Positions 4,690 through 31,270 of a stretch of 64,000 nucleotides of DNA are shown here, in pieces; position 1 is the first letter of the stretch, and each line of letters opens with the position of its first letter. A model generated the notes under the pieces. It did no database searches, was not told where the DNA came from, and worked only from the letters and a program-made list of their open reading frames with translations. The position numbers and the translations under genes are program-made. Source of the stretch: Novosphingobium ovatum (GTDB lineage: Bacteria; Pseudomonadota; Alphaproteobacteria; Sphingomonadales; Sphingomonadaceae); assembly GCF_009909235.1 (NCBI RefSeq), contig NZ_JAAAPO010000005.1:124001-188000 (forward strand). Direction: 5' to 3'.

Positions 4690-5071
4690 GCCAGACGAAC
4701 ATCGGCAGGTAATAGGCGCGCAGCACCCACAGCATCAGCGCGTTCATGCCGCCTGTCAGCACGGCAAAGATCCATTCGATCACGCCCGGATCCAGCACCA
4801 CATTCCACCACACGATGACAAAGCTGAGCGGGGCGGTCGCCGCCATCATCAACGGCATGGCGCGATTGGCAAGGCAGGCGATACCGATCACCACCTCGGC
4901 AATCTTGACCACGGTGAACAGGCCCGAATGGATCATCGCCAGCGTGAACTCCTGTGCCAGCGCGGTATGGCCCAGCGGTTGCAGCCCCAATTGCGGCAGG
5001 AAATATTCACATCCCGAAAACAGGAACCACAGACCAAAGATGATCCGGCTGGCGTGATAAGCGATTCTCAT
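4655..5071 (-). CDS. DoxX-like integral membrane protein
   Basis: A 138-residue protein with four predicted membrane helices (approximately residues 6-24, 45-66, 72-92 and 98-120) and an N-terminal IIFGLWFLFSGCEYF segment of the kind found in DoxX/DoxD-like small membrane proteins. The start at 5071 is preceded by GGAGGGGG. The frame could be extended 18 codons upstream, but those codons lie before the ribosome-binding site. Function is unknown. The gene overlaps the convergent cupin gene at its 3' end. Confidence 0.6.
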   Translation of the reverse strand: MRIAYHASRIIFGLWFLFSGCEYFLPQLGLQPLGHTALAQEFTLAMIHSGLFTVVKIAEVVIGIACLANRAMPLMMAATAPLSFVIVWWNVVLDPGVIEWIFAVLTGGMNALMLWVLRAYYLPMFVWLSPVPSPARPA

Positions 5072-5461
5072 TAGCCCCCTCCGTCGGCCCGCGCGTTGGT
5101 GTGGCGTGCCGCTTTGGTCCGGCATTTACCCGAACGTGTAATGGATTGCCAGAGCGCTCCATGCCGTGATTCCAGGCCCAAGCAGCGCGATTGTTTGTCC
5201 GACATACGAATACATGCGCGCAGTGTGTCCCGAAATGGTGCATCGCAATATTGGAGAGGCCTGACCCAAAACCGCCATTTTCCGCCGTATTTTAGGGAGT
5301 TACCCGGAGCTTCTCGACAGTCAAATTTTGCAGTTGCGAATAACGCAATCGTCGCCCGCAGGAATGCAATTGCGCCCCATCCGCCCACCCGGCATTTCTG
5401 TCGTCAACAACAATAAGAGGTGCCCGAGGCAATCTTTCCTCCTTCCAAAGGGATTATTGCC
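5072..5461. other. 390-base intergenic region with a TTGCG-N5-CGCAA palindrome
   Basis: No coding frame looks real here. The region carries the promoters of the divergent neighbours and is AT-richer than its surroundings from about 5260. An inverted repeat TTGCG-AATAA-CGCAA lies at 5334-5348, and GCAATTGC, another palindrome, follows at about 5366. They lie about 100-130 bases before the secreted-protein gene and may be operator half-sites. Confidence 0.4.
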
Positions 5462-6447: not shown

Positions 6448-7359
6448 TCAATCCTGCGCAGAAACCTGTTCACCCGCGCGGAGCCTGCCGCCCCACACGC
6501 CATAACCGATGCTGATCCCCAGCCCATAGGTCAAGCCCAGCAGCACAGCAATCTCCAGCCACAGCGGCATGGATTGGCCCGGACTGTCGGGGCTGCCGGC
6601 AGGATCGGGGGTGTCGATCACCGTGGGCTGCGGGCTGACGGGCGCGATCAGCGCGAATTCGATCCGGCGGTTGGCGGGGTCATCGGCCGCCAGCCCCGGC
6701 ACCGGCCGCGCCGATCCCAGCCCCTTTGCGCGGATCTGCGCCAGATCGATTCCCTGCCGCCCCAGCGCATTGCGCACCGCCAAAGCCCGCTCACGCGAAA
6801 GCGTCAGATTGGCCGCCTCGTCACCCTTGGCATCGGTATGGCCGATCACCGCGATAATCGCCCCGCCACAGGGGCGCAGGCCATTGGCCACCTCGGCAAT
6901 CAGGCCATGGCTGCCCGGGTCAATCGCCGCGCTCGCCTCGGCAAAACGGATGGAGCGGGTTTTCAGCAAGCCCTCGACCTGTGCCTGACAGGCGCGCAGG
7001 GGATCGGCGTTTTCGGCCGCCACGACGCCCGCGCGCGGGGCCCAATGCACGCCGCCCATGCCCGGCACCGCCGCCACGGCCCCAGCCACCGCCACCCGGC
7101 GCGCGTTGCTCAACCCCGCTCCGCCCAGCAACAACGGATGGCGCGTCGCCTGCCCGGCCGCATCGGTAAAGCGCGCCACAACACCCCGACCGCCAACGGT
7201 CACCAGCGCGGCCTGCGTCTGCTCCTGCAATTGGGCGATCATCGCGGGCGCGCGCCAGCGCATCGCCGCCGCTGTCCCCGCGCCACTGGCCAGAACAGCG
7301 CTTGCCACCACCACCGCCAGCACCCTTGCCCGATGCGTTGCGGCGCGTTGCGTCGTCAT
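6448..7359 (-). CDS. OmpA-family protein with two membrane helices
   Basis: A 303-residue protein. An N-terminal membrane anchor (residues about 10-32) leads into an uncharacterised N-terminal domain with two Cys. An OmpA/MotB peptidoglycan-binding domain follows at about 165-255 (IAVIGHTDAKGDEAANLTLSRERALAVRNAL...RRIEFAL). A second hydrophobic helix near the C-terminus (LWLEIAVLLGLTYGLGISIGYGVWG) is unusual for OmpA proteins. The ATG overlaps the stop of the upstream flippase gene (ATGA), so it belongs to the tsaD-gpsA-flippase chain. Confidence 0.78.
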   Translation of the reverse strand: MTTQRAATHRARVLAVVVASAVLASGAGTAAAMRWRAPAMIAQLQEQTQAALVTVGGRGVVARFTDAAGQATRHPLLLGGAGLSNARRVAVAGAVAAVPGMGGVHWAPRAGVVAAENADPLRACQAQVEGLLKTRSIRFAEASAAIDPGSHGLIAEVANGLRPCGGAIIAVIGHTDAKGDEAANLTLSRERALAVRNALGRQGIDLAQIRAKGLGSARPVPGLAADDPANRRIEFALIAPVSPQPTVIDTPDPAGSPDSPGQSMPLWLEIAVLLGLTYGLGISIGYGVWGGRLRAGEQVSAQD

Positions 7360-16732: not shown

Positions 16733-16860
16733 GTAGCTATCCTTGCAAAATCGCCGCAGCGGCGGCACAGCCTGTCATGGCAAGCCCGCCTTGCCGGCGC
16801 AAGAGGCCGGTAGGATCGCCCCCACCCGCACTTGCCACGAACAAAAAGGCCAGAAGCTGC

Positions 16861-19005
16861 ATGACGTTGATCCCCGGCGGTTACCGCGTTGCGGTTGCAA
16901 ATTTGTGGCATGGGCTGATGGCGGCACTGGCCGGGCTGATGCTGGCGGGCGTGACGGCAGCGCAGATGGCCCATGCGCAAGGCGAGGTGATGACCCCCGC
17001 GCCGGGGCAGGCGCGCAACCATATCCACGCCGAACTGGTCGCGGAAAGGCCCGCCAAACCGGGCGAGATCGTCTGGCTGGCGCTGCATTTCACGCCGCAG
17101 CCGGGCTGGCATGGCTATTGGGTCAATCCGGGCGACGCGGGGTTTGGCATGCGGCTGGAATGGTCGGTATTCGATGTGGCCGTGCGGGCGGCGGGGCCCG
17201 AACAATATCCCGTGCCCGAAACGCTGGTGGTCGGCGGGCTGATGAACCACGTCTATAACCACGAATATGCGGTGCTGGTGCCGTTCCAGGTGCCCGATGG
17301 CGGGCAAGGCGTCGTGCCATTGCGGTTGCATGCCGAATGGCTGGCCTGCACCGACACCACCTGCGTGCCCGAACAGGCAAATCTGCAGGTGGCGATCCGC
17401 ATTGGCAGTGGCCCGGCCGACCCCCGCTTCGAAGGGTGGCGCGCCCGCCTGCCCGCCCCGCTGGACCGCGATGCGACCTATGCCATGGCGGGCGACCGAC
17501 TGCGGATCGCGGTGCCCTATCCGGCCAGCGCGCCGGTTGGGGCGGCGCATCTGTTCATCGCCGGCGAACGCGTCGTGGACTATGCCGCGCCGCAAAGCTT
17601 CAGCCGCAATGGTGACACGCTGATCGTGACACTTAAACGCGCCCATAATGTAGTCACTGACAACAATCCAAAGGGCGCGGTGCTGCGTTTGAACGAGGCC
17701 GGGGACGGGCTGGTGTTCGCGCTGAAACCGGGGGTGGTGCCGCCTGATGGGGTGCCGGTGGATGTCGCGCCCAAGGGGGGCGATGCGGCCAGCCTGCCAC
17801 CGCTGCCGGTGCTGTTGGCGATGGCGCTGGCGGGCGGATTATTGTTGAATATCATGCCTTGCGTCTTTCCCATCCTGTCGTTGAAGGCGCTGTCTCTGGC
17901 CCGCGCGGGTGAGTCCGAGGCTCAGGCAAGGGCCGAGGGGCTGGCCTATACGGCAGGCGTGGTGGTGGCGTGCAGCGCGCTGGGCGCGGGGCTGCTGGCG
18001 CTGCGGGCGGGGGGCGAACAGGTGGGCTGGGCGTTCCAATTGCAGGAACCCGGCGTGGTCGCCGCGCTGTTCCTGCTGGCGCTGGCGATCACCGCCAACC
18101 TGCTGGGATTGTTTGAGTTTTCTGTGCCGGGATTTGTGTCCCGGGTGGGCGGCGGAGGGCGCGGCGGGGTCAATGGCGCCTTTGCCACGGGGCTGTTGGC
18201 CGCCTTTGTCGCCACCCCCTGCACCGGCCCATTCATGGCCAGTGCGATGGGCGCCGCCCTGCTGCTGCCGGTGGGTCAGGCAATGGCGCTGTTTGTCGCG
18301 CTGGGGCTGGGAATTTCCCTGCCTTTTCTGGCAATTGCGGTGGTGCCCGCACTGCGCCGCCGGATGCCCAGGCCCGGCGCCTGGATGGGTTGGTTCCGCC
18401 GGATCATGGCCGTGCCGATGGGGCTGACGGCGCTGGCGCTGGCATGGCTGGCCTCGCGATTGGGGGGCATGTCGTTTGCCGGGGCCAGTGTGGTGCTGGG
18501 CATTGTCGTGCTGGCGGTGCTGGCGATGCTGGGCGATGGGCAGCGGCGCGGGCTGGCGCGCGGGCGATTGGCGCTGGGGATGCTGGCGGCAGTCGCGGTA
18601 TGCGCGGCGGTGATCCTGCCCCGCACGGTGCGCGCGCCCGGCGCGGATTCCACCCCTGACCTGTTGAATGCGCAGCCTTTTTCACAAGACGCGCTAGATC
18701 AGGCGCGTAGCCGGGGCAAGCCGGTGTTCCTGTATTTTACCGCCGACTGGTGCCTGTCGTGCAAGGTGAACGAACGCGTCGCGATCGAGCGCGAATCGAC
18801 CCGCGACGCCTTTGCCAAGGCGGGCGTGGTGGTGTTGAAGGGCGATTGGACCCGGCGCGATCCGGTCATCACCCGGTTCCTGACGGCGCAGGGCGCGGCC
18901 GGTGTGCCGCTGTATCTGTGGTATCCGGCCGGTGGTGGCGCGGCACGGCCCCTGCCTCAGGTGTTGACTGCCGATTCCTTAAGCCAGTTGGCGCAGGGGC
19001 GTTAA
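16861..19005 (+). CDS. dsbD: thiol:disulfide interchange protein DsbD
   Basis: A 714-residue inner-membrane electron carrier that moves reductant from cytosolic thioredoxin to the periplasm, where it supports cytochrome c and oxidase assembly. A signal peptide ends at AHA. The periplasmic N-domain carries the Cys pair CTDTTC. The eight-helix CcdA-like domain carries NIMPCVFPILSLK and ATPCTGPFMAS. The C-terminal thioredoxin domain carries DWCLSCK. The cytochrome c-type oxidase subunits nearby are plausible clients. The start at 16861 is chosen for the signal peptide; the frame opens earlier at 16777. Confidence 0.93.
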   Translation: MTLIPGGYRVAVANLWHGLMAALAGLMLAGVTAAQMAHAQGEVMTPAPGQARNHIHAELVAERPAKPGEIVWLALHFTPQPGWHGYWVNPGDAGFGMRLEWSVFDVAVRAAGPEQYPVPETLVVGGLMNHVYNHEYAVLVPFQVPDGGQGVVPLRLHAEWLACTDTTCVPEQANLQVAIRIGSGPADPRFEGWRARLPAPLDRDATYAMAGDRLRIAVPYPASAPVGAAHLFIAGERVVDYAAPQSFSRNGDTLIVTLKRAHNVVTDNNPKGAVLRLNEAGDGLVFALKPGVVPPDGVPVDVAPKGGDAASLPPLPVLLAMALAGGLLLNIMPCVFPILSLKALSLARAGESEAQARAEGLAYTAGVVVACSALGAGLLALRAGGEQVGWAFQLQEPGVVAALFLLALAITANLLGLFEFSVPGFVSRVGGGGRGGVNGAFATGLLAAFVATPCTGPFMASAMGAALLLPVGQAMALFVALGLGISLPFLAIAVVPALRRRMPRPGAWMGWFRRIMAVPMGLTALALAWLASRLGGMSFAGASVVLGIVVLAVLAMLGDGQRRGLARGRLALGMLAAVAVCAAVILPRTVRAPGADSTPDLLNAQPFSQDALDQARSRGKPVFLYFTADWCLSCKVNERVAIERESTRDAFAKAGVVVLKGDWTRRDPVITRFLTAQGAAGVPLYLWYPAGGGAARPLPQVLTADSLSQLAQGR

Positions 19006-19029: not shown

Positions 19030-19115
19030 ACAAGCGGCCATTTTTCGCACAAAAACGCCCACCCAGACGGGCAGGCGAAATAATTTGTACGCTTTGAAAA
19101 CAAACCTGCCGACAT

Positions 19116-19129
19116 TTGACTTCGGTCAA
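19116..19129 (+). promoter_or_regulatory. FNR/FixK-type box in the dsbD-hemN intergenic region
   Basis: TTGAC-TTCG-GTCAA is a perfect 5-4-5 inverted repeat that fits the FixK/FnrL pattern TTGM-N6-KCAA. No protein gene starts nearby on either strand. A -10-like CATAAA at 19150-19155 puts a start site near 19163, so the box would be centred close to -41, the usual class II activator position. Confidence 0.6.
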
Positions 19130-19162
19130 GGTCTGAAGGCGGAATCCCACATAAAAACACCT

Positions 19163-19300
19163 TCAAGCAAGGCGGTAGCGGTTTCGCCCTTCCGTCTTAC
19201 TCAACGAGGCCCCGATCCTCACCGGTGGCATCGTTTTGGGTTTGTGGAACTTTCTCCCCACCTAGGGCGGCTGATCCTTTGGGCAGCCGTCCATTTTTTT
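19163..19300 (+). ncRNA. predicted FNR-activated small RNA, about 138 nt
   Basis: I infer a small RNA between two convergent protein genes (dsbD and hemN). Upstream are an FNR-type box at 19116-19129 and a -10-like CATAAA at 19150-19155. The transcript would contain a weak 5' hairpin (19169-19191), a second stem with one mismatch (19203-19211 with 19227-19235), a pyrimidine-rich single-stranded stretch TTTCTCCCCACCT (19251-19263) able to pair with Shine-Dalgarno sequences, and an intrinsic terminator ending in seven T residues. FnrS of E. coli and PcrZ of Rhodobacter are known FNR-dependent sRNAs of comparable size. No homology to either is claimed. Confidence 0.5.
19265..19300 (+). terminator. 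strong intrinsic terminator of the predicted small RNA
   Basis: GGGCGGCTG (19265-19273, with one G-U pair) pairs with CAGCCGTCC (19284-19292) around a 10-base loop, and seven T residues follow at 19294-19300. It lies 260 bases past dsbD, too far to be that gene's first terminator. Confidence 0.8.
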
Positions 19301-19385
19301 GACTGTGCCAGAAACGCGGCAAAGGTCAATGCCCCTTCGTCAGGCGGATAATCAGGAATGCACGCAAGGGCACAGGGTGCGGCGC

Positions 19386-19422: not shown

Positions 19423-20736
19423 TCACACCGCCGAGCTGAAACGGCGCACCGAATCCTGACGATAGGGGTCAAACAGCGCGGCAATCGTGCGCGCATAGGG
19501 CAGGCCGCCCGGCAGGATGGTCAACCGGCCCGAATCAAGTTCAGCCAGCCCGTGATGCAGGAAAGGCGACAGCGCTTCGGCCAGCGTCAGGGCCAGCGCC
19601 CCGCCGATATCGGCATGGCCCTTGCACAACAGATCGTTGATGATCCGGCCGGTGCGCTGGTCCTCGTCACTGCGCACAATGCCCACAGCGCCGGCCAACT
19701 GATCCTGCGAGATCATCATGCGATAGCGCCCGGCGTTCTTCTCGTTCTGGACGATCACATCGGGAAAACACGAGATCGACGAGGCGCCAAGGCCCACCAG
19801 CACAGGCGCCTGATCCTCGGTAAAGCCCTGAAAATTGCGGCCCAGACGGCCGGCAACGGTGGCCTGTGCGATGGCATCGCCCGGTCGGGCGAAATGGTCA
19901 AACCCCACCGGCACATAGCCGGCATTGACCAGATAATCATGCCCGCGCGCGGCCATCATGAACCGCTCGTCCTGTCCAGGCAGGGCGGTGGCGTCGATCC
20001 GGCGCTGGCGCGGCAACATATGCGGCACATGGGCATAGCCGAACAGCGCGATGCGATCAGCCCCCAGCCGCAGCGCTTCGGACAGGCTGTGCTCCAGCAT
20101 GGCCCAATCCTGCCCCGGCAGACCATACATCAGATCGTAATTCAGCGAGCGCACCCCGGCATCACGCAACAGCGTGGTGCAACGCTCGATATCCTGCGTG
20201 GGCTGGACGCGGCCGATGCGCTCCTGCAACGCGGTCTCGAACGTCTGCACGCCCAGACTGGCGCGGCTGATCCCGACAAAACGCATCACCTCGGCCCATT
20301 CAGGCGTCATGGTACGCGGGTCCAGCTCGATCGACCACACCGGGTCATCCAGGCTGAAATGCACGGTGATCGCATCGACCAGCCGGACAAAATCCAGCGG
20401 CGTGATGGCATTGGGGCTGCCCCCGCCAAAAGCGATCCGCTTAACCTTGATCCGCCCGTCCAGCTTGGGCCCGACAATCGCGATCTCGCGCGTCAGCGCC
20501 TCCAGATAGCTGGTCAGGCGGGCGCGCTTGTTGTTGGCCGCCGTGTTGCACCCGCAATACCAGCAGATCTGTTCACAAAACGGGATGTGGACATACAGCG
20601 AGACATCGCCGCTGGTCCGGCGCAGCGCCGCATCCAACGCCCCCGCCCCCACCGCCGGGGTGAATTCGGCTGCGGTCGGATAGCTGGTGTAACGGGGCAC
20701 CGGCTTGGACAAGAGGTCTGGATGATAAGGCCACAT
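19423..20736 (-). CDS. hemN: oxygen-independent coproporphyrinogen III oxidase
   Basis: A 437-residue radical-SAM enzyme that oxidatively decarboxylates coproporphyrinogen III without oxygen, supplying heme under low oxygen. It has PRYTSYPTA, the FeS-binding C-x3-C-x2-C in PFCEQICWYCGCN (residues about 50-62), the SAM-binding AFGGGSPN, and ELDPRT. The C-terminal HemN domain follows. It is last in the run of cbb3 assembly genes, 33 bases after the small Cys-rich gene, and an FNR-type box overlaps the end of that gene. Oxygen control of hemN by FNR is well established in related bacteria. Confidence 0.95.
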   Translation of the reverse strand: MWPYHPDLLSKPVPRYTSYPTAAEFTPAVGAGALDAALRRTSGDVSLYVHIPFCEQICWYCGCNTAANNKRARLTSYLEALTREIAIVGPKLDGRIKVKRIAFGGGSPNAITPLDFVRLVDAITVHFSLDDPVWSIELDPRTMTPEWAEVMRFVGISRASLGVQTFETALQERIGRVQPTQDIERCTTLLRDAGVRSLNYDLMYGLPGQDWAMLEHSLSEALRLGADRIALFGYAHVPHMLPRQRRIDATALPGQDERFMMAARGHDYLVNAGYVPVGFDHFARPGDAIAQATVAGRLGRNFQGFTEDQAPVLVGLGASSISCFPDVIVQNEKNAGRYRMMISQDQLAGAVGIVRSDEDQRTGRIINDLLCKGHADIGGALALTLAEALSPFLHHGLAELDSGRLTILPGGLPYARTIAALFDPYRQDSVRRFSSAV

Positions 20737-29222: not shown

Positions 29223-29236
29223 TTGATTCCCGTCAA
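29223..29236 (-). promoter_or_regulatory. FNR box upstream of ccoN
   Basis: TTGAT-TCCC-GTCAA (read on the plus strand) is one base away from the canonical FNR palindrome TTGAT-N4-ATCAA and fits TTGM-N6-KCAA. It is centred 71 bases before the ccoN ATG, as expected for an oxygen-regulated cbb3 operon. Confidence 0.7.
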
Positions 29237-30571: not shown

Positions 30572-31270
30572 TCAGCCCGCTTCGGCGACCAGCGCAAAGC
30601 GATCCTGGATCACCACCTCACGGCGCGAGGGCAGGTCGATGATCCCTTCCGACTTGAGCCGGGTGAACTGACGGCTCACCGTCTCGATCGTCAGGCCCAG
30701 AACATCGGCGATCTGCTGACGCGAGAACGGCAGGACGAAACGGGTGGCATTGCTGCTGCCGTCCGACTCGCAAGTGATCGGCGACAGACGATCCGACAGC
30801 TCCATCAGGAAACTGGCGACCTTTTCACTGGCAGACTTGCGGCCCAGCAACAGCATCCAGCGGCGCGTGCGGTCCAGTTCGGTAAGGGTGCGCTGCAACA
30901 GCTTGTGCTCCAGCCCCGGATGCTCACGCGCAAAGGCGTCAAAATCGCTGCGGCTGAACACGCAAACCCGCGCATCGGTCAGCGCGGTAACGCCATGGTT
31001 GGTCGTGCCACCAAAAGGACGCCCAATGAAATCAGACGGATAAACCACACCGACGATCTGCTCGCGCCCATCTTCGGTGCCGGTCGACAGTTTGAGCACA
31101 CCCTCGATCACATTGGCGACGAGGACCGAATCCTCGCCCTCCCAGATCAGGGATTCCCCGGAGACCAACGATCGCCGCCGCCCAATCGCGTTGAGCGCGC
31201 CGATCTCTTCCTTGTCCAAGGCGGAGCAGATGGCTCTGTTTCGAACCAAGCAAGTGTCGCAAGCTGACAT
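30572..31270 (-). CDS. fnrL: FNR/FnrL-type oxygen-responsive transcription factor
   Basis: A 232-residue Crp/Fnr-family regulator. The N-terminus has a Cys cluster C-x2-C-x6-C (ACDTCLVRNRAIC) and a fourth Cys lies in the cyclic-nucleotide-like domain (ARVCVFSRS), the four ligands expected for an oxygen-labile 4Fe-4S cluster. The C-terminal helix-turn-helix reads FSRQQIADVLGLTIETVSRQFTRL, with the E..SR residues that read TTGA half-sites. The start at 31270 keeps the first Cys at residue 4. It is the obvious candidate to bind the boxes near ccoN, ccoH, hemN and ompW. No such box was found in front of the gene itself. Confidence 0.92.
   Translation of the reverse strand: MSACDTCLVRNRAICSALDKEEIGALNAIGRRRSLVSGESLIWEGEDSVLVANVIEGVLKLSTGTEDGREQIVGVVYPSDFIGRPFGGTTNHGVTALTDARVCVFSRSDFDAFAREHPGLEHKLLQRTLTELDRTRRWMLLLGRKSASEKVASFLMELSDRLSPITCESDGSSNATRFVLPFSRQQIADVLGLTIETVSRQFTRLKSEGIIDLPSRREVVIQDRFALVAEAG

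Follow-up and report, generated by a model that had tools for sequence, protein, structure and literature searches.

Small RNAs (sRNAs) controlled by FNR have been described from few lineages in the literature that we searched. In Escherichia coli, the FNR-activated FnrS is made without oxygen and represses functions that are then dispensable (PMC8139620). Among the alphaproteobacteria, Rhodobacter sphaeroides has the low-oxygen sRNA PcrZ, which depends on FnrL and PrrA and for which FnrL control may be indirect (PMC8139620). In the same species FnrL sites were mapped by ChIP-seq to the putative promoter regions of RSs0019 (Pos19) and RSs2461, an influence of FnrL not being established in that study (PMC4263372). 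The rhizobial AbcR1/2 RNAs (alpha-r15), controlled by LsrB/RpoH1 and not by FNR, consist of a 5′ hairpin and a single-stranded C-rich stretch, aSD2 (UUCCCCUC), lying between stem-loops (PMC8844928). The closest described sphingomonad RNA is SuhB of Sphingopyxis granuli TFA, a trans-acting sRNA of known function (PMC6563040); it is 61 nt long, is growth-rate controlled and acts in catabolite repression, with no FNR link described.

Here we analyze a locus from Novosphingobium ovatum within a stretch of 64,000 nt, referred to as the window. We consider it likely that the gap between dsbD and hemN encodes a stand-alone FNR-activated sRNA (about 19164-19300) with a class II promoter and an anti-Shine-Dalgarno stretch, which would act in trans and repress at low oxygen. 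Such an RNA would be a functional analogue of FnrS, but it has another seed and another neighborhood, and no Rfam match even at E <= 1. Rfam 15 models matched nothing in the window at gathering scores, nothing at E <= 1 over 19100-19310 and nothing in six homologous loci. Compared with PcrZ, by description and not by sequence, the Novosphingobium box stands in an exact class II register; RSs0019 and RSs2461 were likewise compared by description. The 5′ hairpin followed by a single-stranded C-rich anti-Shine-Dalgarno stretch resembles AbcR1/2, but the motif differs: CUCCUCCC and UUCCCCUC are both absent from the window RNA, which has the single conserved motif UUCUCCCC(A/G)(A/C)CU. As SuhB does, the RNA would represent a trans-acting sRNA of sphingomonads. 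We found no FNR-controlled sRNA of this group in open papers; on the basis of that open literature we regard the family as probably new.

A conserved C-rich and terminator module

A nucleotide search of 150 Novosphingobium genomes matched mainly the 3′ part of the locus (window 19249-19301), composed of TTCTCCCCACCT, a GC hairpin and a T run. The first-pass annotation had reported a pyrimidine-rich stretch and a strong terminator with seven T residues; both are confirmed, and these elements, the hairpin arms and the box all lie where it had placed them (Table 1). Within alignments of the C-rich stretch, TTCTCCCC plus the last C and T are invariant.

Table 1. Features of the sRNA locus and associated genes, in window positions
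Feature	Position	Strand	Basis
dsbD-like gene, upstream neighbor	16777..19005	+	DsbD_N, DsbD_TM and thioredoxin domains
FNR/FnrL-type box TTGACTTCGGTCAA	19116..19129	+	Perfect palindrome TTGAC-N4-GTCAA
-10 element TAAAAA	19152..19157	+	Comparative register; overlaps the CATAAA noted earlier at 19150-19155
Predicted transcription start	19164..19165	+	Inferred from register, box centre at -41.5
Predicted small RNA, ~137 nt	19164..19300	+	Fold z; architecture common to homologues
C-rich anti-Shine-Dalgarno stretch TTTCTCCCCACCT, conserved core	19251..19263	+	Alignment invariance
Intrinsic terminator, 9-bp GC hairpin (arms 19265-19273 and 19284-19292) and seven T (19294-19300)	19265..19300	+	Covariation; terminator-like site also in scan
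hemN, oxygen-independent coproporphyrinogen III oxidase, convergent neighbor	19423..20736	-	Radical SAM domain; TIGR00538
FnrL-type [4Fe-4S] regulator, presumed activator	30572..31270	-	NCBIfam FnrL best model; Cys pattern CDTCLVRNRAIC

A covariance model of the C-rich and terminator module (R1) matched 174 of 196 genus genomes at E <= 0.01, and about 137 of the 196 are positive by a stricter criterion (E <= 1e-5 or the box-module pattern). Conservation of box, -10 and terminator in relatives had been named in advance as a check on the proposal; the box and the C-rich/terminator module are kept across the genus, and the -11A and the -1/+1 preferences stand in the class II register. Among 51 named HemN loci the module is found beside hemN in most of those from Novosphingobium (N. 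sediminicola, N. umbonatum, N. aerophilum and N. piscinae included) and was not seen in those from Sphingopyxis and Sphingomonas. R1 matches in the rest of the family were mostly plain terminators; a single other-genus locus from that search (L116) has both a box and a C-rich stretch. Order-wide, the box-module pattern was found in three genus genomes and in no others, using a distance window of 60-90, narrower than the N50-80 of the genus search pattern. One further locus, L026, carries two C-rich/terminator modules about 2 kb apart on the minus strand (~5048-5098 and 7000-7050) with no exact box, one after ligB and the other after a different gene.

Compensatory changes affect six of the nine pairs of the terminator stem. 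Its covariation score of 0.326 compares with 0.183 +/- 0.019 for shuffled alignments, none of 500 shuffles reaching it, and slid controls score lower too. An ORF of at least 15 codons occurs in just 2 of 55 predicted RNAs and the window RNA lacks an ATG; with no conserved ORF among the 55, a small-peptide reading was dropped. On this sequence evidence, a covarying stem and the lack of a conserved ORF, the locus appears to be a discrete non-coding unit with an intrinsic terminator.

The proposed length of about 138 nt needs little change, the predicted RNA measuring about 137 nt from the revised start. Predicted homologues range from 72 to 137 nt (median 93); the longest leader is that of the window copy, whose 5′ part is longer than in most homologues. 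Folding of a 146-nt segment is more stable than that of dinucleotide-shuffled sequence (z -3.3), and homologues share an architecture of 5′ stem-loops, a single-stranded C-rich stretch and the terminator. The C-rich 12-mer has a mean unpaired probability of 0.84 over homologues against 0.37 for the leader, although in the window copy it is just 0.41, a caveat for the window RNA. The folding models thus predict an RNA that leaves UUCUCCCC(A/G)(A/C)CU mostly single-stranded. In one clade the 5′ stem shows one- or two-sided substitutions that preserve pairing. RNAalifold over highly divergent leaders, which are unalignable across clades, recovered the terminator stem alone; support for a shared 5′ hairpin thus extends to single clades and not to the genus. 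The conserved core of the RNA is its 3′ half, with UUCUCCCC(A/G)(A/C)CU and the terminator, and the 5′ part varies from lineage to lineage.

The FNR box, promoter register and regulator

The perfect TTGAC-N4-GTCAA box claimed for this gap is present and is the only exact TTGACN4GTCAA in the 3.57-Mb genome. Relaxing the motif to TTGAYN4RTCAA gives 18 sites there, and the reversed control pattern gives 0. The FNR box of Sphingopyxis granuli, also a sphingomonad, reads TTGAc/t-N4-g/aTCAA and has its centre at or close to -41.5 in front of ccoN and hemN2 (PMC7713065). Across Novosphingobium, 55 distinct copies of the module keep TTGA-N6-TCAA upstream, at a distance of 71-136 nt. The combined pattern TTGA-N6-TCAA-N50-80-TTCTCCCCNNCT gave 62 matches in 61 of 196 genus genomes and none for the control, and 29 of 37 strong module loci, picked independently of box presence, have a TTGA-N6-TCAA box at most 250 nt away.

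Alignment of the 55 distinct copies on the box showed that 95 % of them share an A at box start +37, with a background near 0.2. Once similar-spacer copies were removed, the A was found in 35 of the 38 remaining spacer-divergent clusters (binomial p ~7e-20 after 46-fold correction); this position played no part in copy selection. A pyrimidine occupies position 47 in 84 % of the 55 copies, and a purine occupies position 48 in 69 %. With the box centre at -41.5, box +37, 47 and 48 become -11A, -1 and +1, and these preferences fit the register of a class II FNR promoter with its -10. The -10-like CATAAA originally noted 20 bases past the box does exist, but the comparative register shifts the -10 by two bases. 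Likewise, the class II position proposed for the start site stands, with the start itself predicted 1-2 nt from the suggested 19163. A crude sigma-70 scan found no promoter at the locus, as expected where a class II promoter depends on an activator and has no -35. The published start-site map of Novosphingobium aromaticivorans covers aerobic cells only (PMC7471390), and the start-site and RNA-seq data of this species in GEO (GSE150944) are likewise aerobic.

The genome also encodes an FNR-type regulator. Among NCBIfam models this protein matches FnrL best (4.9e-70, below the equivalog cut-off), and it has CX2CX7C and a later Cys. An FnrL orthologue was found in 170 of 196 genus genomes; the sRNA is present in 131 of these 170 and in 6 of the 26 without one (Fisher p 1.4e-7, shared ancestry ignored). 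Four of the six genomes with the sRNA and no detected FnrL are fragmented assemblies. Two near-complete genomes (G005, G167) keep the box-module unit with no FnrL match at 1e-60. Activation by FnrL at low oxygen is the most likely explanation of the promoter and is well supported by these comparisons.

Similar boxes occur elsewhere. In the window, TTGATTCCCGTCAA at 29223-29236 lies 64 nt upstream of ccoN, where FNR control of the cbb3 oxidase is expected. Elsewhere in the same genome (C3:100927; locus L213, 1428-2769), a TTGATGCGGATCAA box precedes a ligA-ligB pair (PF07746, PF02900) by about 70 nt and suggests FNR control of this ring-cleavage dioxygenase. Two similar ORFs of the same genome beginning MAHFPxNPGF (L195 at C1:795720 and L198 at C2:369882), possibly carotenoid-oxygenase-like, are both preceded by an FNR-type box, about 56-60 nt ahead of the start. 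At five sRNA loci (L004, L007, L008, L011 and L107) the complement of the C-rich stretch, GGTGGGGAG(AA), or a near match (GGCGGGGAG in L011), lies just 3′ of the FNR box, between box and -10. There, upstream read-through RNA would mask the C-rich stretch and FNR-started RNA would not.

Changing genomic context

In the window the sRNA gap is flanked by dsbD and hemN, whose convergent arrangement, as first described, agrees with gene coordinates, strands and domain matches (hemN scores 322 bits against TIGR00538, cut-off 325). On the hemN strand, terminator-like sites lie at window 19077-19056 and 19174-19158 (minus strand); hemN mRNA may stop there and would then be antisense to the entire sRNA. 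The dsbD-hemN gap is the correct site here, but it is one of several contexts in the genus. Locus L022 of N. sediminicola DSM 27057 shares the layout of the window. Elsewhere the module follows hemN on the same strand at a distance of 450-500 nt, lies near ompW and ccoN, forms the 3′ end of ligB (the 3′ UTR of a ligAB operon) or, in one large clade, precedes the FnrL coding match by 110-200 nt, again on the same strand. Relative to fnrL it is thus directly upstream or, at other loci, about 11 kb away, and still other loci adjoin hemN. Four of five box-less loci examined have a TTGA-N6-TCAA box about 1.3 kb upstream of the module, before ligA, the module being the ligAB 3′ UTR. With boxes found before ligA too, nearly every setting keeps an FNR box. 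The conserved box, -10 register, C-rich stretch, covarying terminator and linkage to FNR genes are all computed from the genomes.

The fnrL clade, with its box-module unit upstream of and on the same strand as the regulator gene, is what a cis element would look like: an FNR-driven leader or attenuator whose terminator tunes read-through into the downstream fnrL. We consider this improbable as the general explanation, because the window and many genomes have no following gene on that strand, hemN being convergent or upstream, and because invariance covers the C-rich stretch and not the hairpin alone. A cis role could still be an added function in the fnrL clade.

Another reading makes the module a conserved transcription terminator for dsbD, hemN or ligB that lacks any regulatory RNA function, the box serving nothing or another gene. 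The best-conserved part does include the terminator, R1 matches outside the genus are mostly plain terminators, and the ligAB clade has the module as a 3′ UTR. However, the invariant UUCUCCCC upstream of the stem is unneeded for termination, and in several gene contexts the module is preceded by an FNR box whose -11A keeps the exact register; we give this reading little credence.

Beyond the stand-alone sRNA predicted for the window, we tentatively suggest an undescribed oxygen-responsive Novosphingobium sRNA family whose gene moves within the FNR/hemN/cbb3 neighborhood. It would be the 3′ UTR of an FNR-box operon, ligAB, in one clade and a promoter-proximal fnrL leader in another, where it could serve both as a trans-acting sRNA and as a cis-acting attenuator of its own activator.

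Targets and proposed mechanism

The C-rich stretch had been suggested to pair with ribosome-binding sites; target prediction was run on that idea and returned no conserved target gene. Matches to 9-mer seeds at start codons in 20 genomes were few and rarely shared, and by our own estimate two shared matches among 57 are about what chance would give. Within the window, apart from the antisense strand of the locus itself, the seed matched at a single site. Genome patterns pointed to a VOC-fold gene in two species and, in the own genome, to a gene for an FAD-binding monooxygenase (PF01494) with TGGGGAGAATT before its ATG, which we take to resemble pobA. The VOC-fold gene, the best recurring candidate, was dropped as a conserved target as its site is not kept across 30 orthologues. 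The anti-Shine-Dalgarno stretch is nonetheless conserved and mostly unpaired in homologues, while no gene with a conserved site emerged from the target searches.

C-rich single strands can bind G-rich RNAs, and with no conserved mRNA target found the RNA might be a sponge titrating another RNA or an RNA-binding protein, but as a main role this is very unlikely: the complement matches the Shine-Dalgarno sequence, anti-Shine-Dalgarno sRNAs are a known alphaproteobacterial design (AbcR aSD2, UUCCCCUC; PMC8844928) and no partner is known.

The FNR-activated sRNA first proposed for this gap remains the likely reading, given the conserved box and module, the class II register and the linkage to fnrL and hemN. 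From these sequences we infer activation by FnrL, synthesis of the RNA and repression in trans through base pairing. As oxygen falls, FnrL would bind at -41.5 and recruit RNA polymerase. The RNA would end at the intrinsic terminator, exposing UUCUCCCC(A/G)(A/C)CU. This stretch would then pair with the G-rich Shine-Dalgarno regions, of consensus (U/C)GGGGAGAA, of mRNAs encoded elsewhere, and would so block their translation at low oxygen. Pairing with Shine-Dalgarno regions is the most likely role of the exposed stretch, judging by its invariance, its accessibility and the analogy with AbcR aSD2.

Sphingomonads use oxygen-dependent enzymes to break down lignin and aromatic pollutants. With its promoter, seed and terminator defined, a family that spans the genus would make post-transcriptional control at low oxygen directly testable in these bacteria. 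Its shifting position, as a stand-alone gene, as the 3′ UTR of an FNR-box operon and as the leader of the activator, would provide a natural series of sRNA genes that change their context while keeping their regulator.
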